Below the pieces are notes generated by a model. That model made no database searches, had not been told where the DNA came from, and saw only the letters and a list, made by a program, of their open reading frames with translations. The position numbers were made by a program, and so were the translations under genes. Below, one piece after another: positions 7,965 to 57,090 of a stretch of 64,000 bases of DNA; positions within the stretch are counted from its first letter, which is position 1; the number at the start of each line of letters is the position of its first letter. Where the stretch lies: the NCBI RefSeq assembly GCF_000497045.1, contig NW_015961952.1, forward strand, positions 62,001 through 126,000. The letters run 5' to 3'. The DNA comes from Kalmanozyma brasiliensis GHG001 (taxonomy: Eukaryota; Basidiomycota; Ustilaginomycetes; Ustilaginales).

Positions 7965-9551
7965 ATGCTGCGCTCAGCGTCTTGCGCCGTCAAAGCTGCG
8001 GCTCAGTCACACCGCTTGGTGTCATCTGCCCCGACTCGTTTGCTTTCATCTACATCCCTCCGACAGCGCAGCGATGACGCTGCCAACGTATCTCGGAAGG
8101 GCAAGTCCCCCTCATCGTCGGATGCAAGTGCCTCTGTAGCTGGATCAGTCATCCCATCTTCGTCATCCAAGCCGTCGACATCGACCTCGAAGCCGGTGCA
8201 GATCTCCTACAACCCGCCCAACAAGTCCAACGCCGGCGGCGGGTCCATCACCCTCAACCTCCCGCCGCAGCTCGTCCAGGCCATGTCGCGCAAGAACCCC
8301 GTTGCGCCCACCAAGACCTCTTCCGCGCGCGCCAAAGCACAAGCATCCAAGGCGCTGCGACAGACACTTCCCGAACCGACGACGGGCGAAGTGTATGCCT
8401 GGGCCACCGCCTACTCGTATTCCTTTTCCGAACTCATCCGCTCCGGTCGGCTGCCCGGCAATTACCAGGTGTTCGAGGACAACGAGGTGATTCACATCCC
8501 GCAGTGGCCCATTTCCTCCAGTAGTGGTGCGTCAAGCTCAAACAGAGGCGAAGTGTTCATCTTTCGATCCGGGTCGTACGTCACTTGGGGTCTGGATGAG
8601 GAGCAGAGTCGGCGGTTCTTGAGGAACGTCATTCAGGGTAGGGATCTCAAGTACCAGGTCGAGGTGGGAAGGTACAGCCAGATTGGAGATGAGGCCATGG
8701 ACTATCTGTATGCCCCGAGCCAGCTGACGCGCGTCCAGGGCGATATTGTTGTCATAGGCCAGCCGCCGCGGTCGTTGGATGCCGAGGCGGAGGCTGCCTC
8801 TGACGACGGAGAAGACGGGCATTTGAGCTTTGATGCTTCCACTTCATCTTCGAGCGAGATACCGTCTTCAACGGCTCCGTCGAGCACCAACGAGACGACG
8901 CCATATACGACCTTCGGCACGGAATGGACGCCCACGCTGGCCCGACTCGCGTTCTCCCAAGGCCTCGCCCGTTCCGCCCGTCTCTCGGTCCAGGAAACCC
9001 TCCTCTCCACGTTCCTCACCAGCATGTCTCCCATCCCGGCTCTCCTCTCTTCCACCGGCTCCGTACCTCTCTCTCGCACCTCGGTCATCAAGCACACCGG
9101 CACACTGCTCCGTCTGCGCCAAACAGCCAATCTGGACAGGGACAACTTTTACGACGAGCCCGAGGTATACTGGGAAAACGCAAAGATGGAGGACCACTAC
9201 CGCTCCATTTGCGGCAACTTGGATATCAGCCAGCGCTTCGAGACGCTCAACGAGAAGCTGGACCACTGCGAGAATCTGCTAGGAGTAGTGAGGGCGCTGC
9301 TGACGGAGAAGACGACGCACAGGATGGAGCTGATCATCATTGGGTTGATTGCGTTCGAGGCGGGCATGGCGCTGGTGGGGCATGGATGGGTGCCGACGCC
9401 GGAGAATGTGAGGGGTTGGTGGGGGGACATCAAGGGGTACTTTGGTGGCGAGACAAGGCCAGAAGCACATGATGGGGCGGTGCGAGAGCAAGCGATGACG
9501 GCGGAGACTTTGTCGTCGTCGCTAGTCACGCCGCAAGCCCGCCTCGTCTAA
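7965..9551 (+). CDS. mitochondrial DUF155 protein (RMND1/Mrx10-like)
   Basis: This is a 528-residue member of the DUF155 (RMD1/RMND1) family. Members with a presequence (yeast Mrx10, human RMND1) are inner-membrane proteins that support mitochondrial translation. The N-terminus (1-35) has Arg, Ser and Ala but no acidic residues, typical of a mitochondrial presequence. A low-complexity linker follows (50-130). The DUF155 domain starts at about 143 and contains EVFIFRSGSYVTWGLDEEQS (196-215), which is characteristic. A single hydrophobic helix lies near the C-terminus (about 455-478), in the position expected for the family's membrane anchor. The gene shows no intron. It converges on TRS120, with 137 bases between the stop codons. 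Confidence 0.88.
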   Translation: MLRSASCAVKAAAQSHRLVSSAPTRLLSSTSLRQRSDDAANVSRKGKSPSSSDASASVAGSVIPSSSSKPSTSTSKPVQISYNPPNKSNAGGGSITLNLPPQLVQAMSRKNPVAPTKTSSARAKAQASKALRQTLPEPTTGEVYAWATAYSYSFSELIRSGRLPGNYQVFEDNEVIHIPQWPISSSSGASSSNRGEVFIFRSGSYVTWGLDEEQSRRFLRNVIQGRDLKYQVEVGRYSQIGDEAMDYLYAPSQLTRVQGDIVVIGQPPRSLDAEAEAASDDGEDGHLSFDASTSSSSEIPSSTAPSSTNETTPYTTFGTEWTPTLARLAFSQGLARSARLSVQETLLSTFLTSMSPIPALLSSTGSVPLSRTSVIKHTGTLLRLRQTANLDRDNFYDEPEVYWENAKMEDHYRSICGNLDISQRFETLNEKLDHCENLLGVVRALLTEKTTHRMELIIIGLIAFEAGMALVGHGWVPTPENVRGWWGDIKGYFGGETRPEAHDGAVREQAMTAETLSSSLVTPQARLV

Positions 9552-40402: not shown

Positions 40403-42121
40403 ATGGAGTACTCGTCCCTCCGCCCCGTAGAGCAGCGCTCTACCCGCCCATCCTCGTCGCGCTCTCCCGAATCCCACTACTGGCGCACCTTCCGAGCCCC
40501 CGTCTTTGTCAAAGAGCTCGCGCCCATCACTTCGATCCACTTTGTGCCTCCCGTCTCGGTCTACTCGACCACCTCTCCCGACGATGACCCGACCGCCACC
40601 CCTTCCGTCTCCACCATCGGCTCGACCTCTACGCAGCCGACCTCGGTCACCGCGCGCCAAAAGTTTGCCGTGACCACCGGCGCCCGCGTCCAGATCTACT
40701 CGATGCGCAACAGCCGCGTCTCGAAAACCATCTCGCGGTTCAAAGACGTTGCGCGCTCGGCCAACTTTCGCTCGGACGGCCGGCTCATGGTTGCTGGTGA
40801 CGACAGCGGGCTCATCCAAGTGTTTGATACCACCTCGCGAGCCATTCTGCGGTCGATGCGCGGACACACGGGTCCTGTGCACGTGACGAGGTTCTCACCG
40901 AACGGGACGCAGATCATGTCCGCGTCGGATGATAGGACGGTCAGGCTGTGGGACGTGCCCGAACAGAAGGCGGTGCATGTGTTCGAAGGGCATGGAGATT
41001 ATGTGCGATCGGCGGTGGTCAGTCCGGATAACCCGGCGCTGATGCTCTCGGGAAGTTATGATGGGACGGTCAAGCTGTGGGACGCGAGGACGGACGGGTG
41101 CGCCATGAGCATGACCCACGGTGCTCCGGTGGAAGACGTGCTGGTCTACCCAACAGGAGGAGGAGGTGTAGCATTGTCCGTGGGTGGACCAGTGATGAAG
41201 GTGTGGGATCTCATGATGGGCGGGCGGTGCATGGCGTCCATCTCGAACCATCAAAAGACGATTACGTCGTTGTCGCTGAGCGTGCACTCAGGAGCGGACT
41301 ATAGCGCGAGCAACGCGGACAGCGTGGGTGGCATGCGCGTGTTGACGGGTGGACTGGATCATTTGGTCAAGGTATACGATCCGGCGCAGGAGTTCAAGGT
41401 GACGCACACGATGCGATACCCTTCGCCAGTCCTATCCATGGCGGTGTCGCCGGACGAGTCGCACATCGCGGTAGGTATGGCGGATGGCACGCTCTGCGTT
41501 CGGAAGCGCGATGTCAAAGCCTCGGAGTTGGAGCGCCGCGAGTCGTCGCGTGCGGCGATGAACGCGGGCGCGTACGAATTCTTCCTCCAAGGCAAAGCGG
41601 CGGCGTCCAACCTTCCCTCGGCTGTCAACGTGCGCAAGACGACGGACGACATCCGCGTGGACAGTGTGCGCAGACGAAAGCTGCAGGACTACGATCGCTT
41701 CCTCAAGGCGTTCCGCTACGCCGATGCGCTGGATGCAAGTTTGCGAAAAGGTGTCGCGCCGAGTGTCACGTTCGGGCTGATCCTGGAGCTCATCCACCGC
41801 AGTCCACGTGGTAGTCTCGATGGGCTCCGAAGGGCAGTGGCGGGGAGGGACGATGTGACGCTCGAACCCGTGCTCCGCTTCCTCCTGCGCCACGCGGCGA
41901 ATCCCACCTACGTCGAGTTGGTTTGCGACACACTCAACGTCATCGTCGACACGTATGCGAGCGTCATTGGCCAGAGCCCGCTGATCGACGATCTGTTCGG
42001 CAGGATCTGGGCCAAGGTCAGCGACGAGCTGCGCCTGCAGAGGGAGTTGATGCAGGTGAGGGGCAGCTTGGAGATGGTCTTGGCGGCGACGGCGTTGGGT
42101 GCGGCTGGAGTGGGTGCGTGA
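40403..42121 (+). CDS. UTP15: U3 snoRNP protein Utp15
   Basis: Utp15 is a subunit of the t-UTP/UtpA complex, which binds nascent pre-rRNA and is needed for 18S rRNA production in the nucleolus. The 572-residue protein starts with the family's N-terminal segment (SHYWRTFRAPVFVKELAPITSIHF). A WD40 propeller follows (about 45-350) with blades ending DSGLIQVFD, DDRTVRLWD, YDGTVKLWD, GPVMKVWDL and LDHLVKVYD. The C-terminal UTP15_C region (about 410-560) contains RRKLQDYDRFLKAFRYADALD and FGLILELIHR. No intron is seen and the start is the first ATG. Confidence 0.95.
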   Translation: MEYSSLRPVEQRSTRPSSSRSPESHYWRTFRAPVFVKELAPITSIHFVPPVSVYSTTSPDDDPTATPSVSTIGSTSTQPTSVTARQKFAVTTGARVQIYSMRNSRVSKTISRFKDVARSANFRSDGRLMVAGDDSGLIQVFDTTSRAILRSMRGHTGPVHVTRFSPNGTQIMSASDDRTVRLWDVPEQKAVHVFEGHGDYVRSAVVSPDNPALMLSGSYDGTVKLWDARTDGCAMSMTHGAPVEDVLVYPTGGGGVALSVGGPVMKVWDLMMGGRCMASISNHQKTITSLSLSVHSGADYSASNADSVGGMRVLTGGLDHLVKVYDPAQEFKVTHTMRYPSPVLSMAVSPDESHIAVGMADGTLCVRKRDVKASELERRESSRAAMNAGAYEFFLQGKAAASNLPSAVNVRKTTDDIRVDSVRRRKLQDYDRFLKAFRYADALDASLRKGVAPSVTFGLILELIHRSPRGSLDGLRRAVAGRDDVTLEPVLRFLLRHAANPTYVELVCDTLNVIVDTYASVIGQSPLIDDLFGRIWAKVSDELRLQRELMQVRGSLEMVLAATALGAAGVGA

Positions 42122-42518
42122 GGAACCAGCAGATGCATGCATTTGCTCCAATCACTATCGATGTGCAGCAGTGTGCGCGTGTGTTCGCGAGATGAGATCA
42201 AGATGAGAAATGTCGTCGCAGAACAGACAGACAGGTCAAGAATCGAGACGTGAAAGGAACTCAGCCTCAAAATGGTGACACAAAAAGGCGGCCCAAAAAA
42301 TCACGCTTGCCGCACAGCTTGATTCGGCATCACAAACACAGACACGAGAGAAAGGAAGAAGCAAGATGAGATTGTCCATAGCAAGGCATGATCAACCGCG
42401 GATGGGACCGCGCTTTGACCGGAACGAATCGTAGCTAAAAGTGGTGAAAGAAACGAGTGCATGTAGAAACGAAAACGAGAGGTCGGAACCAAATCGAACA
42501 GTCGGCAAGACATGGAAC
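42122..42518. other. convergent intergenic region UTP15 / cts1
   Basis: About 400 bases between convergent genes. It includes A-rich runs near 42280-42300 that may belong to 3' ends. No gene is seen. Confidence 0.5.
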
Positions 42519-44072
42519 CTACTTCATGCCGTTCCTGACGTTGTCCCACTTAGAGTAGGGGTAGCTGATGTGGTTGAGCGTCGAGTCGAGTACGCCCATG
42601 TTCTTGGCGCAGATGGTGACGATGCTCCTATCCGCACCTCCCTGGGCCTTAGTTGCGTCACCGCTAAGTTCCCAGAACATGGCGCCCCTCAGTCGCTTGT
42701 TGACAATGTACTGGCACTTCAACAAGACATTCTGAGGAGTATCATAGCTGATAAACTCCCTCTTCTTGGCATCGTAGCTCCAGGAAGCGGCGATCTTGGT
42801 GTTGATCATCTCCTTGGCACCCTTGACGGGCAAGAACTTGTAATCCCAGTTACCCGCCTCCCACGTACCCTGGCCTGTACCGTTGTAAGGCTTCTGCGGG
42901 CCATCGGTGTTTTCGAAGCCACGTCCGTACAGCGGAATGCCGAGGACGAGCTTGTGGCTCACCACACCTTGGGCGATGTACCAGTTGATCGCGTTGTCCG
43001 CCGAAGGAGGTTGACCTTTGATCGACCAAAGGTTAGCCTGATGGCCCGTGACGGTGGACCAGGAGCCGGCGAAATCGTACGCCATGAGGTTCCAAAAGTC
43101 GAGGTACTGGTCCATGTCCTTGGCACGCAGCTTCTGGTAGTGATCGGGTCCACACGGCGCTGCGATCGAGAGGAGGTACGGGTTGGCATCCTTTTTCTTC
43201 TGCTGGTGCGCGGTCAGACCGGCGCGAAGCTCCTTGAGGAGGGACACGTAGTTGGCCGCTTGCGCGTCGTTGTCGGGGTACTCCCAGTCGATGTCGATGC
43301 CGTCCAGTCCGTCGTTTTCGAGAATGGTAATGGCGGAGGAGACAAACTTGGCGCGCTTGTTGCGGTCCGACGCCATAGGTGCAAAGTGCGGCCCAAAAGT
43401 CCAACCTCCCACCGAGAGCATCAGCTTTAGTGCCCGGTTCTTCTTCTTGAGCAGCAGGAACTGCTTGAAGTTGCCATAGAGGTTGTTGCCACTGTCATTC
43501 CAGGAGTCACCGGTGTAGTGCAGCTGCTCGTCTGCCCACAGGTCCGTGAGGATGCATTCGCCCGTGTTGGGGTTCACATCGGCAAAGGCGTAGAGGACGT
43601 GCGTGAGGTCGCACACGGGCACGTCGAGGGGCGAGTACTTGCGGCCGTAGATGCCCCAGTTGGTGAAGTAGCCAAGGTTGATGCGCGGCACGATGGCGCC
43701 GTTGGTGGTGAACTCGTGGCCTTCAGAGTCGGTGATGGTGGTGGAAGGGTCGGCGGTGGTAGGGGGTGTGGTGGGCGCCGTGCTAGGAGTAGACGCGGCG
43801 GGAGTGGTGCCGGCCGAGGTCGAGGGAGCGGACGCAGCAGGGGCGGTGGTGGTTGGCACCGTTGCGGCGGGGGTCTGGGGCTGGGTGGTGTCAGCGGCGG
43901 CGTAGGCAGCAGGCTTGGTGGGCGAAGGCGGGAGCGAGGGCGACTTTTTGGGCTCCTCGTCGAATCGCTTCGACATCTTGTGTTTCAGACCTGGTATGCG
44001 AAGGGCGAAAGGTCAGTCATCGTTCCTGTGGACGACATGCTGTGCACTCGAGTGATGCTTACCTTTGAACAT
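42519..44072 (-). CDS. cts1: GH18 chitinase, Cts1-like, without signal peptide
   Basis: This family 18 endochitinase hydrolyses chitin; in Ustilago, Cts1 acts in mother-daughter cell separation and leaves the cell by an unconventional route. The gene has two exons: 44063-44072 (only 10 nt, ATG TTC AAA G) and 42519-43990, joined over a 72-nt intron (43991-44062) with donor GTAAGC, a CTGAC branch site and acceptor CAG. The protein has 493 residues and starts MFKGLKHKMSKRF, with no hydrophobic signal sequence. A Pro/Thr/Ala-rich segment (about 25-90) precedes the GH18 barrel, which has LSVGGW (195-200) and DGIDIDWEYP with the catalytic Glu240. If the intron is ignored, translation would begin at 43976 and lose eight residues. 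Confidence 0.92.
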
Positions 44073-45389
44073 GATGGCCTGCAAAAGCGTGACGCTAGGG
44101 GGTAGTGCGGTGTGTAGTTTGCGGAGGTCTGTTCGAGGCTCGTATACGCGATGAGCTCGCTGATGATGATCTCTGTCGACGACGACGACGTGGGAAGGAG
44201 ATGATGGTGGTGGTGAGGTCGGAAGTGGAAGCTGAGCGATGAGGGGAGAAAGAGGCGCAGGAATCGGACTGTGTAAATAGGAACAGGAGCGGAGGTTGAA
44301 TGCAGCGTAGGAAAGTGGGGCGGTCTGGCTCTTGCAAGGCAGCGTCGAGGACGAGTGACGACGTTGAGTGGACCACAAGGCGAGGACTGCAGTGGACAGC
44401 ATCAACAACTCGAACGAGAATCTACCTCATCCCGAGACGCTTTTTTGGTCTTGGCTGTGAATTCCACACCGCGGAAATGGACAGCTTTCGATCTCGAACT
44501 CGCGCCCACGCGCACGTCCACAACACCCTCCTCGAGAGAAGCGCAGTTTGGATTTTTGGCTTTGAACCCCTGTCTCTGAACCAGAAGAATGCATCGAATC
44601 ACTCGCAGCGGATAGCAAGCTTGTCCTGAAGTGGCATGGCCTACATCCTCATGCACCACCATCAGAGCGTTCAGGGACACCGTTCAGGGATGAGAACGCC
44701 AAATCTTGGCTCAGCCTTGGCTCCTATCTATGCGCAAGCGTACGTCTTTCATCGTGGATGAAAGTTTGATGGTGACGGCCGACGAAGGCACCCACTTGAC
44801 GGCGTTGAGCTTCTGAGCCGCCTCTCAAATCGCGCGTGGTGTGGAATGAATCTCATACGCACCCCCTCTTGTCCCCCCTTGCGGCATGTGGTATCCACAA
44901 TGCATCGCAGAAGCGACAACCACCACAGGAGTACGAGGAATGGCAGGTTGCATGCGCTTCTCGGCGTCGACTTCGGAGGCAGCAGGCGAGGGATCTCCAT
45001 GCGATCGGCACCTGGTTCCAACTCCGCCCGCCTTGGCTTCAACTCTACGCTGCACCTCATGCTCGCTGCCATGTCGATCTCCTTTTTGGCGAGACCAACA
45101 CCGGCGAAATTTGCCAAGGTGTGAGATCGACATGTTGCCAAAATTGCCAAAATTTCCGGCCGATTGGAAATTCTGCGAGAAGGGTCCGGCAATCTTCGGC
45201 TTGAACCCTTGTGGGACGGCAGGGTTGCGCGGACCTTCTCCACAACTCTTGACAAGCTTGAGCTTTCGCCTTCGAACACCACCAAGATCCGATTCTCGAG
45301 GTACCGATCGACCGAGCCTCCTAAAAGGTGTCAAGATCTGAGCTTATCTGGCAACCATCACTCGCTGTCATCAGGAGACAACCGATACA
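44073..45389. other. divergent intergenic region cts1 / BNA6
   Basis: This 1.3 kb region holds both promoters. Frames of about 120-180 residues overlap on opposite strands at 44.8-45.3 kb but have no family resemblance. A 12-bp inverted repeat (45070-45134) is listed separately. Confidence 0.45.
45070..45134. repeat. 12-bp inverted repeat upstream of BNA6
   Basis: CATGTCGATCTC at 45070-45081 is exactly reverse-complementary to GAGATCGACATG at 45123-45134, with a 41-nt spacer. It lies about 260-320 nt before the BNA6 ATG. Such a repeat could occur by chance in a window of this size. Confidence 0.6.
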
Positions 45390-46298
45390 ATGTCGACCTC
45401 GACCCCTGTCTACGCTAACCTCCTCCCGCCCTCGTGGAAGGTCAAGATCAGCGAATGGCTCAAGGAGGACTGTCCCTCATTCGACTGGGGCGGCTTTGTG
45501 GTCGGCGAGGCTCCTAAGCGCGCCACACTCTTCTGCAAGAGCGAGGGTATTCTCGCCGGCGTCCCCTTCTTCGACGAAGTCTTCAAGCAGCTCGATTGCA
45601 AGGTCACGTGGAACTTCACCGAGGGCGAATGGCTCAAGGTTGCTACGGAGGGCGGGAAGGTCAAGATTGCAGTAGCGACGGTGGAGGGTCCATCGCGTAA
45701 GATTCTGTTGGGTGAGAGGGTGGCATTGAACACGCTGGCGAGGTGTTCGGGTATTGCTACTGCGTCTGGGCTGTTCTTGCAGAAGGCGCGGGCGGCAGGG
45801 TATCAGGGCATCGTAGCAGGAACACGAAAGACCACACCCGGATTCAGGGACGTTGAGAAGTACGGCATGCTCGTCGGTGGCGTAGACATGCACCGCTACG
45901 ACTTGAGTAGCATGGTCATGCTCAAGGACAACCACATTTGGTCCACCGGTTCTGTCACCAACGCCGTCCACGCTGCGCGGTCCGTCTGCGGCTTCTCCCT
46001 GCGCATTGACGTAGAGGTCCAAAGCTACGACGAGGCGGTCGAAGCCATCCAGGCAGGTGCAGATGTGATCATGCTCGACAACATGGAGGGAGAGTCGCTC
46101 ATCAGCAACGCAAAAAGGTTGAAGGACGAGTTTTCCGCGAAACACAAGTTTTTGCTCGAAAGCAGCGGAGGGATTGACATCGACAACGTTCAGCAGGGAG
46201 GTCATGTCGACAACTCGATCGACATTATCTCGACCAGCTCGATCCACCAGTCGACCAAGCACGTCGATTTCTCGCTCAAGATCGATCCTTCCTCGTAG
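45390..46298 (+). CDS. BNA6: nicotinate-nucleotide pyrophosphorylase (quinolinate phosphoribosyltransferase)
   Basis: The enzyme converts quinolinate and PRPP to nicotinate mononucleotide, the entry of the kynurenine route into NAD. The 302-residue, intron-free protein has the N-terminal domain with [12 protein letters not shown] (23-34) and [10 protein letters not shown], then the barrel with [18 protein letters not shown] (about 108-125), the PRPP/substrate segment [15 protein letters not shown] (about 142-156), [15 protein letters not shown] and IMLDNM. C-terminal ESSGGID and [11 protein letters not shown] match the phosphate-binding loops of the family. Length is normal and the start is the first ATG. 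It is followed 211 nt later by SPO11 on the same strand. Confidence 0.95.
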
Positions 46299-46509
46299 AT
46301 TTGCCAATACAACAATCTTACAGCGGACGACTCGGGTGTGCCGACCATCGAAAGACGGACCTTCCGGTGATGACAACGTGATTCGGCATGGTTCCCGACT
46401 AGGTCCCTACTTTGAACGAACGGGCCACAAAGGTGTTTGCGGTGTCTGCACATGAGAGCGTCTCCTTCCTCACCATCATCCATCTCCTGACCTCGTCGAT
46501 CGGCGGGCC

Positions 46510-47808
46510 ATGACGAGCACACAACCAGCCGTGCTTGCGCGCATCGATGAGCTGATCACCCATTTTGTGCGTCAGCTCGTCTTGCAGGATGCGGCTCTCC
46601 AACAGCCCACGCCACCATTGTCGCTCTCCTCCGCTGACTCGCAAGCGTCATCTAGCGATCGACCAGCCAAGCGACGCAGAGCAGCACGAGAGGCAAAGCC
46701 CAAAGTGACACCCATGAGACTGCTCAGCTTCGCCCAAGATGGGGAGCGGAAGGAGAGCAACGTGTCGTACCCACCGTCGAGCGTTGCGCGACTGAGACGG
46801 TTTGGTGAGCCTTTCCTTCTCCCTTCTCTTCAAGGATCGAGCTCCTGACGAATCCGCCAACCGCTCTCACGCATCAGCTCAGATCCTTAAAGTGCTCTCT
46901 CTGATCCAAACCAACCTGCTACGCGGTACACTGGTGACCAAGCGGTAAGTCATCCCCTCTCGTCCCCTGCCTCACTGCCTCTCAGTCCGCTGACCAGCTT
47001 GAAAGAGATCAACACGGGGAGCAGGGACATCTTCTACCAGTGCCTCCAACTGTTCCGCACCCAGGCCGCGTCGGACCGCATCATCAACCAGATTGTCACC
47101 TTGCTCGGCTGTGCGGCTCGGGCGGAGCTCAACATCGTTGCTAGCCCACGCGGGATGATCGCTGGACCGCTAACCCTGGTGCCACCGCGGCAGGAAGCGA
47201 TCAAGTGTAGGGCGGGACAAGCGCGATTCATCCCGCCCGAGGTCGGTGTTGGGTGGAGAGTTGACCTTCAATGCACGCCGGAGTGCGCTTCTGCAAGGTG
47301 TGCGCATCTCGTGCTGGTGGTGGAGAAGGAGGCGGTGTTCAAAACCCTTCTCCAGCACCAGGCCTTGGCTTCGAATGCCAGCTCGATAGATTGGGGACGA
47401 GTCGTCATCGTTACGGCCAAAGGCTATCCAGACCACGCCACACGCACACTGCTACGTCTGCTTTCGTCCTCTCAGTGCCAGTTCGGCCGCGAGATTCGGG
47501 TGCTGGGACTGTTCGATGGCGATCCGTACGGCGTGCACATTCACCACCAGTTCGGGGTACAATGGCTCGGTGTTGATGTGGAAGACTTTCTTCCCCCCAA
47601 CGAAGGTGGGGCATTGGTACAGCTGCGCAACGACGAGCGGACGATGGCGGTGCGTCTGCTCCGCACTCTGCCTCGAGACGAAGTCGAAAAGAGGACGAGG
47701 TTGACAACCATGCTCCTGACGGGGTACAAAGTGGAGATCGAGGCAGCGTACGACGTTTCCTCTGGCCTCGTCGGGTATGTTGAGCACAAACTTTCGGAGT
47801 TGTCATGA
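46510..47808 (+). CDS. SPO11: meiotic double-strand-break protein Spo11
   Basis: Spo11 is the topoisomerase VI A-like protein that makes meiotic DNA breaks. I read three exons: 46510-46804, 46878-46944, and one ending at 47808 that starts at 46998 or 46986. Intron 1 (donor GTGAGC, acceptor CATCAG) joins RRF to AQILKVLSLIQTNLL, a conserved Spo11 segment. Intron 2 (donor GTAAGT) has two in-frame acceptors: CTCAG at 46985 (41-nt intron) and ACCAG at 46997 (53 nt), differing by four residues. The predicted length is about 385-390. SRDIFYQC carries the catalytic tyrosine. The Toprim domain has LVVEKEAVF with the metal-binding Glu and DGDPYGVHIHHQF with the Asp pair. All key residues are present. 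Confidence 0.9.
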
Positions 47809-47825
47809 ATGCATATCGTAAAAAA

Positions 47826-48905
47826 TTATACACGAGGAACGGTCTCTCGGTCTGGATATTCGATCGAGGTGTCGAGCCCGTTGTGACCGTGGGGCTTGTA
47901 CGGGTTGCCCTCGTCTTCGCGGCCGCTCTGCACACGGAACGGTCTCAATCCCTCCCGCTCTTCGCCCTGCGTTGGTGCGTAACCCTCTTCGCCCGCGCCC
48001 ATCATCCGTTCATTGGGGATGCGGGGCGAGTACGGCTTGTGACTCTGCGCATGGCCCAGCGGGGGATAGTAGAGCTTGTAGCTCCAGTATGCTACTACCA
48101 GCCCCAAAAGGCCGCCAGCAATGACGTCGGTTGCGTGGTGTCTGTAGTCCATGGTGCGGCTGACGGCGATGAGGGTGGCAGCCATGAGCGGGGTGCCGCA
48201 TAGCCAGGCCGTTACCGCGTGCCCTCGACGGTCGAACAGGTGCAGCTTGCCGGCGAGGTAGAGCGAGAGATAGGTGAAGCCTGCGAAGGAGGTCGAGGCG
48301 TGACCCGAGGGGAACGAGCGGAAGCCGTCGCGGAGGATCTTGTTGTCGACGCCGACGGTGCAGATGATGTCGGTGACGAGGCCGTACGGCGAGGCGTTGA
48401 CGGAGCCGGGAGCCGGTTGACACCTGTCGATCAGATCCGGTCGAGGTCGGCCGACTGTGCACTTAATGATTGTCGTGACGGTCACAGTGAGTGCTTGGGC
48501 GAGCACGAAGCCGAGCAGACCGTTGTGCAGGTCCCACACCGAATTCGAGACTCCAAGTGAAAACCCAACGATGATGATCGCAGGGATCAACACCGCCAGC
48601 ACGCCAAGCAACCACGTCGGCACCCGCTCGTGCACCGCATACGTGTGCTGAATGGATGTATCCGTGAGCGAGAACTCCCGTCGGAAGCCGTGGACGTTGT
48701 TGATAATCGCCAGCAGACCCGCAAGAAGGATCGTAATGATCCAGTCGGGGAGGTAGGAGCGGAGAAGTTCGAGCTTGCGCCGACGTGTGATGGGGGTGTG
48801 GTGCGATGACCAGCGCAGTTGCGAGTAGAGCGACTCGCGATTCGATTGCTGCTGGCCGTTGCCTGTGTGCGACGAGGAGGAGGCGGTGGGTGCGTGGTCC
48901 GTCAT
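47826..48905 (-). CDS. DPP1: diacylglycerol pyrophosphate phosphatase (PAP2 family)
   Basis: This membrane lipid phosphatase dephosphorylates diacylglycerol pyrophosphate and phosphatidate. The 359-residue protein has about six hydrophobic segments and the three PAP2 motifs: KCTVGRPRP, PSGH within SFPSGHASTSF, and SRTMDYRHHATDV, which carry the catalytic His residues. The soluble C-terminus (about 290-359) is charged. The frame opens at a TTG (48917); the first ATG is 48905 (MTDHAPTASS). The stop codon lies only 17 nt from the SPO11 stop on the other strand, so the 3' untranslated regions must overlap. Confidence 0.93.
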   Translation of the reverse strand: MTDHAPTASSSSHTGNGQQQSNRESLYSQLRWSSHHTPITRRRKLELLRSYLPDWIITILLAGLLAIINNVHGFRREFSLTDTSIQHTYAVHERVPTWLLGVLAVLIPAIIIVGFSLGVSNSVWDLHNGLLGFVLAQALTVTVTTIIKCTVGRPRPDLIDRCQPAPGSVNASPYGLVTDIICTVGVDNKILRDGFRSFPSGHASTSFAGFTYLSLYLAGKLHLFDRRGHAVTAWLCGTPLMAATLIAVSRTMDYRHHATDVIAGGLLGLVVAYWSYKLYYPPLGHAQSHKPYSPRIPNERMMGAGEEGYAPTQGEEREGLRPFRVQSGREDEGNPYKPHGHNGLDTSIEYPDRETVPRV

Positions 48906-49460: not shown

Positions 49461-51101
49461 TCAGGCGGCCACACCGGCTCCGCCTCTCAGACCGCCTCCG
49501 CCGCCGGCAGCCACATCCCTGCCGTTGATGACGACCCTTCCGCCTTCTGCACCCTGCTGCCCCCTTCTCTCGCGCTCCCCCATCCACATCAGCACCCGAT
49601 TGCACGTGACCAACACATGCCGCAAGGCCCTCGTCCACGTCTCGTCGCTCCCGAATTGCAGCCTGATGCTCGCCTCGCCGATCTTGTCCTTGTTGATCGC
49701 ATGCGGTGTCTGGAATGCACCGTCCTCCCTCGCGGCAAAGTCGACCACCTGCTTAAGACACGCCAGGAAGCCCGTTTGGGCGTGGTCGAAGCGTCTGCTT
49801 TGCAACAGACGGCCAATCTGCCAATCGGACGAGCCGTAGAGTTCGTAGACCGTCTTTTCGCCGCTTTCCTCTCCATCTGCTGCTTCGGCTGCGTCAGTTG
49901 CTGCTGAGGAAGGAAGGTAGGTGGATGCGGACGAAGAAGCGGATGAGTAGTGCTGCGTGCGCGCATCTTCGTAGCGATACACAACGCTAAATGAACCCTT
50001 GGGAATGAGGCGGTAGCCACGAAAAGCGATGTTGAGCTTGCGAGAGAGCACGTCGAGCAGCAGCGCCGTTTGTCCCCATGCCGCGTTGATCTCGTTCCAC
50101 TCCACCGGTTGCCCGGGAAGCCTGCCGAGACGGAGACCGTTGATGGTGGCAATGCCGCCTGAGTGGCCGATGCAGAAGGCGTCCGTGTAGACGTTTGTCG
50201 CTTGCAGCCGGGCCAGCAGCTCTTTGTCGTGCGCCACGGCCATCGCGAGCGACGCCTTCTCCTCTTCCAGCTTCGACAGCGTCAGCGAGTGCGAAGAGTA
50301 TTGCGACCAGAACCGTTCTTCTTCCTGTTGCAGCGCAGCTTCTTCTTCGGCAATGGCTGCGAGTTGCGCTTCGATATCTAATCGCGCAGCTTCGGCTTCC
50401 TTGAGCTCGCCCAATGCGGTCGACTCGTCGGTGATGAGCTCGTCGATCTCGTGTTGCAAGCTCTGGCATTCCTCTAGCTGCTGCTGTCGTATCGCTGCCG
50501 TGTCCTGATCACTCTCTATCTGCCTTGCTGTGGATGAGGAGAAAGACCCGCGACGTTGAAGGCTGGACCGTGCTGACGATGGCAACACCTTATATCTGCG
50601 CAGCTCGGCTTCAAATGCGAGGTACGAGTCGCGCTGCGAGCGCACTTGCGACATTTGCGAGTCCATAATGTCGAGCAGCGTGTCTGTACATGCTTTGCAG
50701 AGTGGATGATCGATGACCGTCGACGAGGAGCTGCGAGATTTAAGATTCTTCTTGCTGATCCGCGATGCTGACGGTGATCCTTTGCCGCTTTTGGCCACAG
50801 GCGGATGCGATAGCAGATCGAAGAGCGCCGATGAGGCGGCGAGTCGTGCGCTTAGCGAGTTGGCATCATTTGGACCTTCGCCAGCAGTGGGCTTTGACGT
50901 CGAAGCGGCATCCTCTGGCTTGTCTGTGGATAGAGCTGGTATCCTCGATGATGATGATGATGCCTTTGAGTTCAAGGCGTGGCGCGGCGCGATGAAAGAG
51001 TCCTGCACGAGGTCATACGCCGATTGATTGAGGTCGAGATCCGAGGAGACCGACGGATGCAACAGCAACGGCTGCCGACAGCGCTGACAGCTCCAGGACA
51101 T
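49461..51101 (-). CDS. ATG6: autophagy protein Atg6 / Beclin 1 (Vps30)
   Basis: Atg6 is a core subunit of the class III phosphatidylinositol 3-kinase complexes for autophagy and vacuolar sorting. The 546-residue protein starts MSWSCQRCRQPL with a CxxC pair, and a second CxxC is in PLCKACTDTLLD (about 137-148), as in the family. A Glu/Gln-rich coiled coil spans about 205-295 (EECQSLQHEIDEL, AIAEEEAALQQEEERFWSQY). The BARA domain follows, with NVYTDAFCIGHSGGIATING and GLRLGRLPGQPVEWNEINAAWGQ, and GYRLIPKGSFS further on. The C-terminus is Gly/Arg-rich. Ser-rich insertions lie at about 45-70 and 385-405. It is divergent from the first gene of the four-gene array. Confidence 0.95.
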   Translation of the reverse strand: MSWSCQRCRQPLLLHPSVSSDLDLNQSAYDLVQDSFIAPRHALNSKASSSSSRIPALSTDKPEDAASTSKPTAGEGPNDANSLSARLAASSALFDLLSHPPVAKSGKGSPSASRISKKNLKSRSSSSTVIDHPLCKACTDTLLDIMDSQMSQVRSQRDSYLAFEAELRRYKVLPSSARSSLQRRGSFSSSTARQIESDQDTAAIRQQQLEECQSLQHEIDELITDESTALGELKEAEAARLDIEAQLAAIAEEEAALQQEEERFWSQYSSHSLTLSKLEEEKASLAMAVAHDKELLARLQATNVYTDAFCIGHSGGIATINGLRLGRLPGQPVEWNEINAAWGQTALLLDVLSRKLNIAFRGYRLIPKGSFSVVYRYEDARTQHYSSASSSASTYLPSSAATDAAEAADGEESGEKTVYELYGSSDWQIGRLLQSRRFDHAQTGFLACLKQVVDFAAREDGAFQTPHAINKDKIGEASIRLQFGSDETWTRALRHVLVTCNRVLMWMGERERRGQQGAEGGRVVINGRDVAAGGGGGLRGGAGVAA

Positions 51102-51382
51102 GATGTCGTTGGAGCAGAATGCTCGCCTTGAGGCGATGCTCTGATCGGATTGACGGCGTGGCGAGATCGAAATGGTGGAGTGCTAAGTCCAAAGTTGGCC
51201 AAAGCGAAGTGCAGCACATTTCAGGGTCCAGACGCGCTCCGCCTTTCAGAAACCTCAAAAGTGACACCAACGCACGTCACTCTGGCAAGTCACGTCCTCG
51301 CTCCCTTTGCTCTGTCTCATCACCACCCTCGCCTGGACGTCGTCGCAGCGTAGCACTTCATAGCTCTCTGAAATCAGCCCCC
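51102..51382. promoter_or_regulatory. divergent promoter ATG6 / array gene 1
   Basis: This 281-base region serves ATG6 (minus) and the first array gene (plus). AAGTGACAC at 51259-51267 and AAGTCACGTCCTCGC at 51287-51301 recur in similar form before array gene 2, so the promoter appears to have been duplicated with the gene. Confidence 0.45.
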
Positions 51383-51847
51383 ATGTCTCCGCAGCCTGAT
51401 CAAGCCGACCGTAAGCGTAAGCTGCCGCCCTCAAACGAGGAAGCTCCCCGCGCAAACCCTGTCGACCCAAACTCCAGACCGAGCCCTATCATCGTTGGCA
51501 GCTCTTCACCACCTGCAGATTCCAGTGTTCCTACCTTCGCGTGCACCAAGCCGGACCATGCATCGCTCGCTTTCACGATCGAGGACATGTATAGAGCGAG
51601 CAGTGCCGACTGGGACGAGGTCAAAGAACCAGACTTTACCGACATGAAGCCCTACGAGCAGGACGCGGAAGAAGCGAACCGCCAAGCTATCGAGCACCAT
51701 CATCGCAAGATCAAAGACTTGTTCATCAAAGTCAAGGAGACTCATCCGGAACTGGATCTGACCGACGTTTCAGATTCAGACGGCGAAGAGGAGGGCTTAG
51801 ATGAAGATTCGGAGGCAGAGTATTCCGAGGAAGAGGAGTATGAATAA
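51383..51847 (+). CDS. array gene 1: small acidic-tailed protein, unknown family
   Basis: I do not recognise this family. The 154-residue protein starts MSPQPDQADRKRKLPPSN, with a short basic NLS-like cluster and no signal peptide. The conserved core has PDHASLAFTIEDMYRASS (about 58-75), a His/Lys segment EHHHRKIKDLFIKVKETHPELDLTDVSDSD (about 108-137), then an acidic tail rich in Glu. It is the closest relative of array gene 2 (same PQPDQ-DRKRKL start, MYR-S motif, HHH-K, LTDVS). The frame extends upstream to 51119, but the ATG at 51383 aligns with the start of gene 2. It is intron-free. A nuclear protein is possible but unproven. Confidence 0.8.
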   Translation: MSPQPDQADRKRKLPPSNEEAPRANPVDPNSRPSPIIVGSSSPPADSSVPTFACTKPDHASLAFTIEDMYRASSADWDEVKEPDFTDMKPYEQDAEEANRQAIEHHHRKIKDLFIKVKETHPELDLTDVSDSDGEEEGLDEDSEAEYSEEEEYE

Positions 51848-52191
51848 GAAGCTTCTCCCTTCAGTGCCTGTGAGTGAGATCCTCTTTGCGATGTCTGCAA
51901 GACGGTCACCGAGAAGTGTGAACCGACAAGACGTTTTAGGACTACGTCAAAGGTAGTCTGAGTACGCCGGCGTTCAAAGAGCTGTCTCTTTGGAAAGCGC
52001 GCATTGGTCACCGCGCTGGTTTCATTTGCCTCACCACTTCCAGGGACGCGCTCTGCTGCGCAGAAAGTGACACTTTGTTCGACAGGTCACGCCTCGCAAT
52101 CTTCCTTCACTACCTCACAACTACTGCCATCCCTCAAGACGACTGTTCCTTTGCGGATCTTTCGGAGTCGCTTCTCATCCTAGCATTCGTC
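51848..52191. other. spacer between array genes 1 and 2
   Basis: This 344-base spacer carries GATCCTCTTTGCGATG at 51878-51893, 31 nt after stop 1, and AAGTGACAC (52065-52073) plus AGGTCACGCCTCGC (52084-52097) before gene 2. Both types recur at the corresponding place of the other copy. No additional gene is seen. Confidence 0.6.
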
Positions 52192-52650
52192 ATGCCGCCG
52201 CCGCAACCTGATCAAGTTGACCGCAAGCGCAAGCTGTCGCTTTCCAATGTGAACGCCCCCCGCACCTGTCCTGCCGGCCTCAATGAAAAGCCCAATCCCA
52301 TCAGCGTTGCCAGCATGCCGCCTTCTGCTGGACCAGACACCGGGGCGTGCGAGGTCCTCAAGCCTGGATACGAAACGCTCGTCAGGAAGCTGGAGCAAAT
52401 GTATCGCGAGAGCCGCTCTGAGGTCAAGGAGAAGAAGCAAGAACAAAGGAACATGGCCGGCTACGACCATTTCCAAGTGGAGCAAGTCGAGATGGAGCTG
52501 TATGGAAATCAACATCACCACAGCAAGATGAAGGCGTTGCTCAAGACGATCAAGAGATCCAATGCCGAGCTCGTTCTGACTGACGTGTCAGAGACTGACA
52601 TCGAGTGGGAGGAGGATTCATCGGAAGAGGAGGACTCGGAAGGAGAGTAA
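52192..52650 (+). CDS. array gene 2: paralogue of gene 1, unknown family
   Basis: This 152-residue protein starts MPPPQPDQVDRKRKLSLSN and follows the layout of array gene 1: NLS-like N-terminus, a Pro/Ala-rich linker with PNPISVASMPPS (gene 1 has PSPIIVGSSSPP), then PGYETLVRKLEQMYRESR, QHHHSKMKALLKTIKRSNAELVLTDVSETD and a short Glu/Ser tail. The residues between the two core motifs are longer and Lys/Gln-rich. No signal peptide, membrane segment or known domain is visible. The ATG at 52192 was chosen because it aligns with the start of gene 1; the open frame begins at 52075. Confidence 0.8.
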   Translation: MPPPQPDQVDRKRKLSLSNVNAPRTCPAGLNEKPNPISVASMPPSAGPDTGACEVLKPGYETLVRKLEQMYRESRSEVKEKKQEQRNMAGYDHFQVEQVEMELYGNQHHHSKMKALLKTIKRSNAELVLTDVSETDIEWEEDSSEEEDSEGE

Positions 52651-52920
52651 TGCCAAGTCAATCCCGACAGCGCTTTGCGTGGAAAGATCCTCTGCGATGA
52701 TTGTGAGCTGGTTTGTGAAGAGCACGAGTCGTTCATGAAGGTGGACTGGTGAGAGGTCTCGTAAGAGGTGACAGGAGGCCAATTAGGGGCCAGAGGGCTC
52801 GTGCGCTGCTGTACTTGCACTATGATCTCTACCTTCGTCACGGTCGTCTTTCGCCACGATTTACTCGATCACCATCTGCAGCAGAGCGCTTCCAAAAGCT
52901 TTACTGCTCGCTACTTCTGT
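52651..52920. other. spacer between array genes 2 and 3
   Basis: This 270-base spacer has GATCCTCTGCGATG at 52686-52699, 36 nt after stop 2, matching the 3' flank of gene 1. Nothing else is recognised. Confidence 0.6.
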
Positions 52921-53388
52921 ATGTCGCCTCCTCAGAAGCGCCCTAGGCCTCAAGACGGCTCTGACAACGCTCCTTCCGACTGCAAGCGCCCCACGCCTTC
53001 GCCCGACAATAGCTCCTCTGGCCCCAGCGCCGCCCAGTCGAGCTCCGAGCCGGCGACCGTCGAAGCTGGTCCTGGCCCCACCTCCAGCGCTGCTGTTTTC
53101 CAGGAGGCATCAAAATGCCATGAACCTGCTCACACCGCAATTCTCGAAGAGCTCATGAAGCTCTACACCTTGAGTACCGGAATCAAGAAGGACCTCAGTT
53201 ATGAACCGGACGAGCGCACAACCGCCGATCTTCTCATGATAATCCTTCAAGAATTGGACGACATCCACTGCATTGTCAAGAGGATGTCCAAGATGGCCAA
53301 AGACTCAGACCCAGAACTCGAATTGGTCGAGGGCAGGCCGGATCTGGACGAATTTCTCTACTACGAGGGTGCCGTCATCCGCTGGTGA
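52921..53388 (+). CDS. array gene 3: diverged paralogue, unknown family
   Basis: This 155-residue protein starts MSPPQKRPRPQDGSD with a basic NLS-like cluster. After a Ser/Pro/Ala-rich linker it has PAHTAILEELMKLYTLST (about 74-91) and, about 35 residues later, VKRMSKMAKDSDPELELVEG, which correspond to the two core motifs of genes 1 and 2. It shares EELMKLY with QQLMKLY of gene 4 and so pairs with that gene. It lacks the HHH motif and the long acidic tail, and ends GAVIRW. No signal peptide or known domain is seen. Membership in the family rests on the motif spacing and its position in the array. Confidence 0.72.
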   Translation: MSPPQKRPRPQDGSDNAPSDCKRPTPSPDNSSSGPSAAQSSSEPATVEAGPGPTSSAAVFQEASKCHEPAHTAILEELMKLYTLSTGIKKDLSYEPDERTTADLLMIILQELDDIHCIVKRMSKMAKDSDPELELVEGRPDLDEFLYYEGAVIRW

Positions 53389-53704
53389 AGAGGATACTCA
53401 GAGGGTGTCGTCGCGCAGGGTGCCAACGTGAATGCTGACGTGATCGTGTACAAGCTTGTGATCGAGTGTGCTTCCGAGCCTTGACGCTGCGAGAGAACGG
53501 CGATTGTGATTCGATCAGTCAGGTGGGAACGGTGGGACGCCGAGGAGTGGCCCCACCGGCGAGCGCGTCGAGGGCTAAGTCGACGCTTCATCCAAAAAAC
53601 GTCTCCACACATCCTCTTCACTCGATTCCTCACCAACCCTGGTCAAGAAGCTTCCCAACCACTCTCTGGCCTCTCCAGCTCGCAACCCAGTGTTGACACT
53701 TGCA
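53389..53704. other. spacer between array genes 3 and 4
   Basis: This 316-base spacer ends in a C/T-rich stretch before gene 4. No gene or clear duplicate of the promoter motifs of genes 1 and 2 is seen. Confidence 0.5.
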
Positions 53705-54280
53705 ATGTCGTCTGCTACCGACAAGACTCAAAGCGTCGCCGACGTCGCCGCGGCCGATCCTGCTGCTGTCGCTGCTGTCGCCAAGCCCGCGACCCCCGCC
53801 GCTGAGCCCCAGTGCACCAACCCCACTCATCTCAAGATCTTCCAACAACTCATGAAGCTGTACAAGGAGAGCAGCGACATGGACAACTATGTCAACTACT
53901 GGTGGCAGGCTGACGACCTCCCGTACAAGCACGACATCCACAACATAATGTACATGGCAAACGACACCCACGCTAGCCTCAAGGCCGTTTGCCAGATGGT
54001 CAAAAACGTTCAGCCCGAGCTGGAGATGGTTGAAGCTCCCAAGTATGTCGATTCAGAGGAGAGTGAGGAGGAAGAAGAGGAGGAAGAAGAAGAAGAAGAG
54101 GAGGAGGAAGAGGAGGAAGAGGAAGAGGACGAGATTGAGGACGAGGAGAGTGAGGACGAGGATGAGGACGAGGAGAGCGAGGACGAGATAGATTCGAAAG
54201 AGGCCGATCCGAACGAGGCCAAGTCGAACGAGTCTGAGTCGAACGAGTCTGAGTCGAACAAGCAGTCCACGAGCAAGTGA
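53705..54280 (+). CDS. array gene 4: paralogue with long poly-Glu tail, unknown family
   Basis: This 191-residue protein starts MSSATDKTQSVADVAAADP, then has PTHLKIFQQLMKLYKESSD (about 41-59), an aromatic stretch with NYWWQADD, and SLKAVCQMVKNVQPELEMVE (about 90-109), the second core motif. The C-terminal 75 residues are extremely acidic: 21 consecutive Glu codons (54065-54127), then Asp/Glu/Ser, ending in SNESESNE repeats and KQSTSK. The N-terminal basic cluster of genes 1-3 is replaced by Ala-rich sequence. The open frame starts at GTG 53690, but the first ATG is 53705. It converges on the next gene, with 101 nt between stop codons. Confidence 0.78.
   Translation: MSSATDKTQSVADVAAADPAAVAAVAKPATPAAEPQCTNPTHLKIFQQLMKLYKESSDMDNYVNYWWQADDLPYKHDIHNIMYMANDTHASLKAVCQMVKNVQPELEMVEAPKYVDSEESEEEEEEEEEEEEEEEEEEEEEDEIEDEESEDEDEDEESEDEIDSKEADPNEAKSNESESNESESNKQSTSK
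54065..54127 (+). repeat. GAG/GAA trinucleotide run (21 Glu codons)
   Basis: An uninterrupted purine run of mixed GAG and GAA codons encodes 21 consecutive glutamates in array gene 4. The mix of codons suggests it is not a very recent expansion. Confidence 0.9.
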
Positions 54281-54381
54281 CGGCTGAGAACAAAAACCAT
54301 CCAGGCAGCCAACTCAAACCTCACCGTCAAAATTGTTCTTCAAAGTAGCAAAGCAATGAACTGAGTTTGATCTCACAACAA

Positions 54382-57090
54382 CTACGTACGCTTCCCAGCC
54401 TCGACCTGAGCCTGTAAGCTCTGCATGAGCACGGCGAGCCCGCTGAGCTGACTCGGGCTGAGTCGGCTGAGCACCACAGAAATATGCAGGATCTGCTGTT
54501 TCCCTCCTGCACCATCGGCGCTCGCCTCTGCAGTGCCTTCGCTGATTCCGAGAAGGACTGCGGGGACGCTCTGCGCCGGATCGATTGGGATTGGCAGGCC
54601 CTCGAGACCCTGTGGTTGTCCGTTGGCGCCAATCACGGGTCGGATGTGCGGGCTTGGTGTGGGCTGGATGCCTAATGCCGAGAGTCGAGGTAACGAGGCT
54701 ACTGGGATGAGCAAGGGTATGGGGTGATTCGGAATGGAAGGGTTGGCGTTCGCTGCCGGGGCTGGAGCAGGTGCTGGTGCAGGTGAGGCAGCTGCTGGCG
54801 GAGTCGCTTTTGCAGTGCCATTTGCCTTTGGAGTCTTCTTCGGCGCCGCGGAGGGAGCAGGCGACGGTGAAGGCTTGGCAGGCGTCACAGCTCGCGGCGT
54901 GTTGAGGCTCGTCGCGCTGGTGAGCGTTGGATGCATTGTCGGCGGCCGAACCGTCATTGGCGAAGCTGCATTGCCGGGAGGCGATCCTCCAGGTGGTCGC
55001 ACCTGCGTCGGCGTGGGTGGAAGCGTTGATGCGAAAGCTTCGCCAGAGTAACCGGGTGCTGGACCAGGCATCGTTGGCGGCACGGGCGATGCGGATGGCG
55101 GTGGACGTGTCATCGCAGCTGAACCAGGTGGCAAGGAAGGCGGCGACATGGCAGCTGCGCCTGCAGCGCCTGGTGTACCCGGTGCTGAGCCGGTCGCTGC
55201 TGGCTGCTTTGCCGCTGGCTTCTCCTTCTTCTTGCGCGGGATGGGGATCGGAGGCCCTCCCGGTGTGCCGGGCAACGGATGCTTGCGTGGCCTTCCTCGA
55301 CCTCGATGAGGTGTTGGGCCCGGCGTCACGCCTGGAGTACCCGGGGTTCCTGGTGTACCCGGTGCACTTGCCGCTGCTGCTGCGGCGGCTGCAGTCTTTG
55401 CTTTGCTCTTGCTGGATGGCTTGACCGGTGTCGCCGCTGCCGTCGAAGGTGTAGCTGGCATCGAGGTAGTGGCAGGCATGAAGGGCGCAGACGTCGGAGC
55501 AGCCATCGGCATCGGTCCGCCGTTCATTCCCGGAGCCGTAGCGCCAGACACAGGAGCGAAAGGCGGTGCTGAGCCAAACGGCGTGCCTGGCGTGGACGGC
55601 ATCGAGAAGCCATTGGGCACGGATGCAGCAAAGGGCAAGCTGCCGCCAGGAGGGAACGGATAGCCTCCGGGTGTGCTTGCTGGCGTGCTGACAGCCGAGT
55701 ACGAGCTTGACACCGCAAACGACGCCGGCCCTGACGGTGCAGGAGTGGCACTCGCACTCGGCGCGGGCGAAGCTGCGGGCATTGCGGGTGCACTCGGTGG
55801 CTCTGGCGGAGGCGTATAGATGCCCAAGCGATGGCGTGCTTCGCGCTCTTTCTCGAGCTTGGCCGCTTTGGCAGCTGCTCTTTCCTGCTGACGTTTGACT
55901 CTCTCCAGCTCGCGTTCCCTTTCCCTTTCCCGCTCGATCTCGTCGGTGATGCCGAAGCTGAGGTTGATCTTTTCGGATGATTCCGCAGCATCGATCTGCC
56001 GTGTCTCTTCCATCTTCTCGAGCTTGGCCTTGAGCTCTTTGAGCTCTTCAATCTGCGACAAGACTTCTTCCCGATCATCGTTGTAGGCAAGCCTCTCAAG
56101 ATGTTCGAGCGAGATTGATGTGTTTGGCGCGCGCTTGTGGGTGGTGTCGAGCCTGGTGAGTGTGCGTTGGAAGCGAGAAGCAAGCCCTTTCCGCCTTGCG
56201 AAGACAGACTCGGCCCAGTCCAGGGTGGGAAAGTTGGGCTGCGGGATGTTAGGGAGGGGCGTAGGAAGACTGAGCTCGTTGAGCTGGACGTCCTCCCCGT
56301 CTAGCGCAGTGTCGAGGTTCGTTTCAGCGCTGGCGTCTGTGTCGACTTTGATGGCCGACGAAGTCAACTCGGATGAAGCTACCGCTGCGAGCGCACTCTG
56401 CTCTGCCATGTCCACATCTCGGATCATGCTGCGTTTGAAATGCTCGGCATGCGCAATGCGTCGACGCTTCCGTGTTCTGACATCGCTGAGGACCGGGTCT
56501 TGCTTCAAGTCGAGTGCCTGCAGCAGATCTTGATGCGGGATGTTCCAGACGTGATACGGCAAAAGCCGTCGCAGTGCATCGCGAGCATCTATGAAGGGTG
56601 ACAGGTCGGGTCGGAGGATTGCTCTGTGGTCTTTGCTGAGGAGCTGGTCGACTATGGAAGCAGGGTCGTCGTTCGTCCGCGCTTTCAAGTCGAGGGCATC
56701 AGCATCGCGAGCGTCCTTGTGCCGCAAGTCGGCGCCTTTTGATTGCTTGCCACCATGTGAGAGGGACGCTCGATTGACGTCGACCCGAAGTTGGGAGAGA
56801 GAAGCAGCTTGGTCTTCTTCTGGCTCCTGCTTGACGGCTATCGAGCTTGCAGCGGAGCCATTGACGCCATAAATGTGGTTGCTGCTGCTGCTGAAAGTGC
56901 TGCTTGGATCTGCTGATGCTGTGGGCTGCTGTTGTGATGGTACTGAGCTCGAGGCGTGTGATGAGGCGCTGCCCCCCGAGAGGGCAGCTGGGTCGATGGT
57001 CAACAATGCATTTGCTGACGACGAAGTGCTGGCGATGTTCTGTGGTGGGTAGGTCGACGTCGATGTAGGGACCGGCGAGTACGCTTGCAT
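54382..57090 (-). CDS. GLTSCR1-domain, AT-hook chromatin protein
   Basis: This is a 902-residue protein, mostly low-complexity Pro/Ala/Ser/Thr. The conserved part (about 150-200) reads DHRAILRPDLSPF then DALRRLLPYHVWN, matching the GLTSCR1/BICRA domain, whose animal members are subunits of the non-canonical SWI/SNF (BAF) complex. A Lys/Arg-rich motif RKRRRIAH follows, then a charged helix (about 350-440, EELKELKAKLEKMEE and ERERERELERVKRQQERAAAK). RGRGRPRKHPLPG (about 620-632) is a typical AT-hook for minor-groove DNA binding. The C-terminus has helical segments (SPSQLSGLAVLMQSLQAQVEAG). The open frame starts at a GTG (57207); the ATG at 57090 is the first methionine. Chromatin-remodelling function is inferred from the domain. 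Confidence 0.7.
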   Translation of the reverse strand: MQAYSPVPTSTSTYPPQNIASTSSSANALLTIDPAALSGGSASSHASSSVPSQQQPTASADPSSTFSSSSNHIYGVNGSAASSIAVKQEPEEDQAASLSQLRVDVNRASLSHGGKQSKGADLRHKDARDADALDLKARTNDDPASIVDQLLSKDHRAILRPDLSPFIDARDALRRLLPYHVWNIPHQDLLQALDLKQDPVLSDVRTRKRRRIAHAEHFKRSMIRDVDMAEQSALAAVASSELTSSAIKVDTDASAETNLDTALDGEDVQLNELSLPTPLPNIPQPNFPTLDWAESVFARRKGLASRFQRTLTRLDTTHKRAPNTSISLEHLERLAYNDDREEVLSQIEELKELKAKLEKMEETRQIDAAESSEKINLSFGITDEIERERERERELERVKRQQERAAAKAAKLEKEREARHRLGIYTPPPEPPSAPAMPAASPAPSASATPAPSGPASFAVSSSYSAVSTPASTPGGYPFPPGGSLPFAASVPNGFSMPSTPGTPFGSAPPFAPVSGATAPGMNGGPMPMAAPTSAPFMPATTSMPATPSTAAATPVKPSSKSKAKTAAAAAAAASAPGTPGTPGTPGVTPGPTPHRGRGRPRKHPLPGTPGGPPIPIPRKKKEKPAAKQPAATGSAPGTPGAAGAAAMSPPSLPPGSAAMTRPPPSASPVPPTMPGPAPGYSGEAFASTLPPTPTQVRPPGGSPPGNAASPMTVRPPTMHPTLTSATSLNTPRAVTPAKPSPSPAPSAAPKKTPKANGTAKATPPAAASPAPAPAPAPAANANPSIPNHPIPLLIPVASLPRLSALGIQPTPSPHIRPVIGANGQPQGLEGLPIPIDPAQSVPAVLLGISEGTAEASADGAGGKQQILHISVVLSRLSPSQLSGLAVLMQSLQAQVEAGKRT

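Follow-up and report, generated by a model that had tools for sequence, protein, structure and literature searches.

Four small, uninterrupted open reading frames follow one another head to tail, all on the forward strand, at positions 51383-54280 of the window, the 64,000-nucleotide stretch of Kalmanozyma brasiliensis GHG001 DNA analysed here (bases 62001-126000 of contig NW_015961952.1, our contig C5, in a genome of 17.27 Mb), between ATG6 and a gene with a GLTSCR1 domain and an AT-hook-like stretch. The locus raises the question whether these frames are genes of a single family, how far such a family extends and what its products might do. A preliminary description, made from the DNA letters, had proposed an undescribed family of four genes in two pairs. 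We find that the four genes belong to a family of six, the other two members forming a second tandem locus outside the window, that conservation is stronger in the shared core of the proteins than at their ends, and that the family is apparently restricted to its lineage.

A six-gene family at two tandem loci

The place, strand and sizes given for the four frames (152-191 residues; Table 1) agree with our reading of the DNA. On the forward strand of 51101-54400, the frames of at least 150 codons counted from the first ATG number four and are genes 1-4, as compared with 0.07 such frames on average, and never more than 1, in 500 base shuffles of the same interval. With their upstream ATGs, genes 1 and 3 comprise 242 and 188 codons. 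The protein database holds gene 3 in the 188-residue form, which starts from the upstream ATG (52822-52920 region); we favour the 155-residue form because the other members share an MS/MP start. All of the motifs first listed for the four proteins are present (PQPDQ.DRKRKL, MYR.S, HHH.K, LTDVS, LMKLY and HPELDL/NAELVL/DPELEL/QPELEM). The layout first drawn from them is better expressed, as the core shared by genes 1-4, by P-x-[HY]-x2-[IL]-x3-[LI]-x2-[LM]-Y ... K-x3-[PA]-E-L.

Pairwise comparison bears out the proposed pairing, with BLASTP E-values of 7e-28 for genes 1 vs. 2 (38% identity over 133 residues) and 2e-11 for genes 3 vs. 4 (32% over 76 residues). The number of four genes, in contrast, has to be revised: with gene 4 as query, the whole genome yields two frames beyond the array, both on contig C9, with E-values of 1.1e-12 and 6.4e-8. 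These frames, genes 5 and 6, are again in tandem, and BLASTP gives E-values of 8e-13 for genes 4 vs. 5 and 3e-15 for genes 5 vs. 6. Searches of the genome with each of the six proteins retrieve the others in part and yield no seventh member among the best candidates scored, where the remaining matches are weak (E >0.1). The candidate at C21:610176 (E 0.0014) was rejected: it belongs to a long frame unrelated to the family, of which it is the acidic end.

The six proteins fall into two subgroups, genes 1/2 and genes 3-6, and a common origin of the two pairs of the array had been inferred from the spacing of their motifs and from their adjacency. Comparison of the subgroups by profile-profile alignment (hhalign), with tail-free cores of genes 1/2 and their orthologues as one input and of genes 3-6 as the other, gives a probability of 94.1% and an E-value of 1.3e-7 in a single comparison. 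Among the 16 cross-group pairs of cores, which include orthologues and hence are not independent, seven have scores that no more than 1 of 1000 shuffles attains; for four the number is 5-9, for one it is 30, and for the remaining four, all involving gene 6, it is 72-241. BLASTP finds nothing for gene 2 vs. gene 4 and gives an E-value of 5e-4 for gene 1 vs. gene 5, and in genome searches gene 4 retrieves gene 1 (E 1.2e-4) and gene 1 retrieves gene 4 (E 3.0e-4), matches to which the acidic tail may contribute. A tree separates genes 1/2 from genes 3-6 with full support, leaves the order inside the 3-6 subgroup unresolved and carries a long-branch warning. We conclude that common ancestry of the two subgroups is well supported, because the profile-profile match, the core shuffles and the two further paralogues on C9 all point to it. 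Features of composition are also held in common: an acidic tail is present in five of the six proteins and absent from that of gene 3, the isoelectric points lie between 4.05 and 5.04, and no member has more than three cysteines. In the gene 4 tail, the coding GAG/GAA array likely differs in length among strains.

A conserved core and two predicted helices

Protein searches returned two foreign proteins only, P0008 and P0009, which are encoded on the same 4368-base metagenome contig and are the orthologues of genes 1 and 2, respectively. Between gene 1 and P0008, identical columns number 69/73 (95%) in the core, 36/55 (65%) in the N-terminal part and 18/26 (69%) in the tail; the corresponding counts for gene 2 and P0009 are 59/77, 27/56 and 9/21. 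The gene 1 core thus looks constrained, and not merely fast-evolving, because it is 95% identical between flanks that are 65-69% identical, and the pattern in both pairs of orthologues looks like that expected of proteins with loose ends and a constrained, folded core. These results qualify two earlier suggestions: that only short motifs survive and the genes diverge quickly, which is correct among paralogues and does not extend to the gene 1 orthologue, and that synteny is kept, for which the support comes from genes 1 and 2, whose orthologues share a contig.

The searches returned no protein from other smuts, although NCBI, UniRef and nr records were covered, by a method that needs shared five-residue words and was run without a positive control. 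One protein search was confined to 7990 candidates, many of them probably attracted by the Glu-rich tail; this search, made with tails, missed gene 3 although the database contains it, and tail-free searching missed gene 6, which the search with tails had returned. Genes 4 and 5 were returned by no protein search and may be missing from the database. Absence from other smuts is therefore provisional, since word-based searches without a positive control missed known members, and diverged relatives in other Ustilaginales are possible. Scans for the gene 1/2 subgroup, run with its alignment on prokaryote genomes and on viral contigs, produced 176 and 142 pattern matches and no relative.

AlphaFold models were obtained for one member of each subgroup. 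Gene 2 is predicted to form long helices at residues 60-86 and 93-123, with means of pLDDT over 10-residue blocks of 89-96 across residues 61-120, and gene 6 to form long helices at residues 47-80 and 83-113, with block means of 78-92 across residues 41-120. The same two-helix core is thus predicted in both subgroups, from models that used the same 7 sequences and so are not independent. Two long helices are a generic arrangement. Among the solved structures whose alignment spans both helices are known hairpins, for example those of tubulin cofactor A and CHMP4B, and Foldseek and VIA yield generic helical matches only, with no identification of the fold.

Searches of domain collections are consistent with the earlier view that no known domain is present. 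None of eight whole proteins (the six genes, P0008 and P0009) has a Pfam match above the curated cut-off, and a scan of trimmed forms, printed without cut-offs, agrees. Gene 4 has nine weak Pfam matches, each taking in the acidic tail, and also accounts for both of the NCBIfam matches with E at or below 0.1, which are far below cut-off.

Function and competing explanations

The proteins are probably intracellular and not secreted, as had been supposed, to judge from their sequences. By hydropathy, used here in place of a predictor, no member has a signal-peptide-like N-terminus: the highest mean of any 15-residue stretch that starts within residues 1-20 is 1.5, in an Ala/Val/Asp run of gene 4, and the others are at most 0.93. 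Nor does hydropathy show a stretch of membrane-spanning type. A basic cluster occurs in genes 1 and 2 (DRKRKL) and in both orthologues; that of gene 5 is a different one.

The reading that we tentatively favour, while according it somewhat less than an even chance, is that the genes encode an intracellular, partly nuclear family of adaptor or chaperone-like proteins. The family would have spread to its six genes through tandem duplication at two places. Each protein would begin with an N-terminal arm, of low confidence and probably disordered, continue with ~75-90 residues of core and, in five of the six, end in an acidic C-terminal tail. The two long helices of the core most likely pack as an antiparallel hairpin, which could bind a partner or pair with a paralogue or with itself, while the tail may grip basic surfaces, for example those of histones or ribosomal proteins, in the manner of acidic-tailed chaperones. 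The DRKRKL cluster is a putative nuclear import signal, and the products of genes 1 and 2 would then act in the nucleus. We consider each of four other explanations, namely a worn-out known family, selfish genes, effectors and chance frames, to be less likely than an adaptor or chaperone-like family.

The likeliest of these, in our judgment still unlikely, holds that the proteins belong to a conserved helical family and have diverged so strongly that the likeness in sequence is lost; examples of such families are tubulin cofactor A, Mediator subunits such as Med11/22 and the N-terminal coiled coil of Not3/Not5. A weak lead comes from P0009, for which the best Pfam match is Not3 of CCR4-Not (18.5 bits vs. 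a cut-off of 25.8; E 0.0014), together with a Not5 structure among the VIA matches for gene 2. Against this, P0009 alone among the eight family proteins matches Not3, the one match in a sequence search of PDB has an E-value of 6.4, and Foldseek E-values are near 1, with many unrelated proteins and designed bundles tying. Separately, we note that the resemblance of P0009 and gene 2 to Not3/Not5 may reflect long helices only.

That the genes are selfish or conflict genes of the spore-killer, meiotic-driver or allorecognition type, intracellular, lineage-restricted and diverging in tandem, appears improbable. Their occurrence at two tandem loci, the strong divergence of the paralogues and the apparently narrow distribution fit such genes; the lack of a membrane-spanning type of stretch by hydropathy does not, no toxin/antidote layout is seen, and the strong conservation of the gene 1 core between orthologues is not the hypervariable pattern expected.

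A poorer prospect still is that the proteins are unconventionally secreted and effector-like, acting in an insect or plant host. In their layout, small, clustered orphan genes of Ustilaginales are similar to effector clusters, which speaks for this explanation. So does the source of the strain, an insect larva (PMC3868848). On the other side, no member has a signal-peptide-like N-terminus by hydropathy or is rich in cysteines, and the basic cluster and acidic tails suit an intracellular protein. To our knowledge, moreover, the species has no described parasitic stage.

We regard as equally doubtful a metal-sensing or conflict module, intracellular and peculiar to the lineage. Candidate metal residues are found among the eight sequences: C-x4-H at the start of helix 1 in 6/8, a His in helix 2 in 7/8 and a Cys seven residues after that His in 3/8, with all four residues present in genes 4 and 5 only. 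The C-x4-H and the His/Cys of helix 2 could meet where the hairpin opens, forming a metal site; with part of these residues lost in the other members, the paralogues would be differently tuned versions of one switch.

Chance or decaying frames without function, an explanation to which the low-complexity ends of these orphans and their being known from DNA, not transcripts, lend something, are very improbable given four frames vs. a shuffle mean of 0.07, six paralogues and the conservation of the core over the ends between orthologues.

Genomic setting and relation to known systems

Both loci are flanked by ordinary genes (Table 1 for those of the array), and the frames show a common layout at both: the first family gene is divergent from its neighbour and the last is convergent with its neighbour. 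For the array, the flanking genes had been named as ATG6 and an AT-hook gene. Pfam confirms ATG6, and the second gene contains the AT-hook-like stretch RGRGRPRKHP and, in addition, a GLTSCR1 domain, matched on a longer, GTG-started frame. ATG6 and gene 1 may have a common bidirectional promoter, because only 281 bases (51102-51382) separate their start codons. No shared promoter element was found: 6- to 10-mers that occur in all six upstream regions are no commoner than in random pieces, and for this reason we make no claim for GTGAC-type words near genes 1-3 and 5. Further left, from 40403 to 48905, Pfam identifies ordinary genes.

On C9, which encodes a protein named PSEUBRA_002029, the pair of genes 5 and 6 lies between an NAC-alpha-like gene, with which it is convergent, and a transporter-like frame, from which it is divergent. 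The former carries the NAC/UBA domains of the nascent-polypeptide-associated complex alpha subunit (EGD2); the latter is a long frame that looks by eye like a multi-membrane transporter and has DUF3955 as its sole Pfam match (E 7.2e-5). Just 3' of the stop codons of genes 5 and 6, donor- and acceptor-like sites can be seen by eye (GGTGAGC...TTTCAAG and GGTAAGC...CTCAG), and introns in the 3' untranslated regions of these genes are possible.

Table 1. Family members, neighbouring genes and other features. Coordinates are window positions except for genes 5 and 6.
Feature	Position	Strand	Description
UTP15	40403	+	Identified by Pfam
GH18 chitinase-like gene	42519	-	Identified by Pfam
Quinolinate phosphoribosyltransferase	45390	+	Identified by Pfam
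PAP2 phosphatase-like gene	47826	-	Identified by Pfam
ATG6/Beclin	49461-51101	-	Divergent from gene 1; Pfam APG6 (E 2.5e-59), APG6_N (E 6.8e-23)
Gene 1	51383-51847	+	154 aa; DRKRK basic cluster; core with C-x4-H and HHH; acidic tail; orthologue P0008
Gene 2	52192-52650	+	152 aa; nearest paralogue gene 1; C-x4-H lost (V-x4-Y); acidic tail; orthologue P0009
Gene 3	52921-53388	+	155 aa; core of 3-6 subgroup; no acidic tail
Gene 4	53705-54280	+	191 aa; core of 3-6 subgroup; long Glu/Asp tail
Low-complexity GAG/GAA array	54055-54187	+	Codes for gene 4 acidic tail
GLTSCR1-domain gene	54382-57090 (from first ATG)	-	Convergent with gene 4; Pfam PF15249 (E 6.1e-9)
Gene 6 (156 aa) and gene 5 (171 aa), tandem	L012:7638-8108 and 8675-9190 (contig C9, outside window)	-	Found by genome search

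In the literature on Kalmanozyma or on tandem or orphan genes of smuts, judged mostly from titles and the openings of abstracts, we find no such family named. The preliminary description of the family as undescribed thus stands, with function a proposal from sequence. We conclude that the six genes are an undescribed, apparently lineage-restricted tandem gene family and not a new kind of system; we file them as an undescribed member of an ordinary class because no Pfam or NCBIfam match reaches its cut-off, the literature covered names no such family and orphan duplicates are usual in smuts. They change nothing in the knowledge of any established system. In the available portion of a study of smut orphan genes, lineages have 201-1186 such genes each, some in species-unique paralogue clusters and most without a conserved domain (PMC5897528). 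The counts in that portion cover nine lineages, K. brasiliensis having been used for the species tree only, and in comparison with such sets the present six genes form one defined family with two loci and a predicted two-helix core. Orphan families usually stay 'hypothetical protein'; six paralogues, two loci, a conserved core and predicted helices make this one testable.

The resemblance to tubulin-binding cofactor A (PDB 3mxz and 1h7c; Foldseek E 0.69, 11-18% identity), common to many unrelated helical proteins, is accompanied by no match to its sequence family. The clustered secreted effectors of Ustilago maydis are tandem arrays of small, diverged, lineage-restricted genes, and in all of these respects the present family is like them; unlike them, it lacks a signal-peptide-like N-terminus (by hydropathy) and has acidic tails, to which genes 1 and 2 add a basic cluster. 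Acidic-tailed nuclear chaperones are small proteins with an acidic C-terminal tail. Pfam and PDB searches found no sequence relation to them, but in small size, acidic C-terminal tail and possible nuclear import signal the family is like these chaperones. The two loci offer a compact case in which to study the rise and splitting, through tandem duplication, of a new family of intracellular proteins in Ustilaginales.

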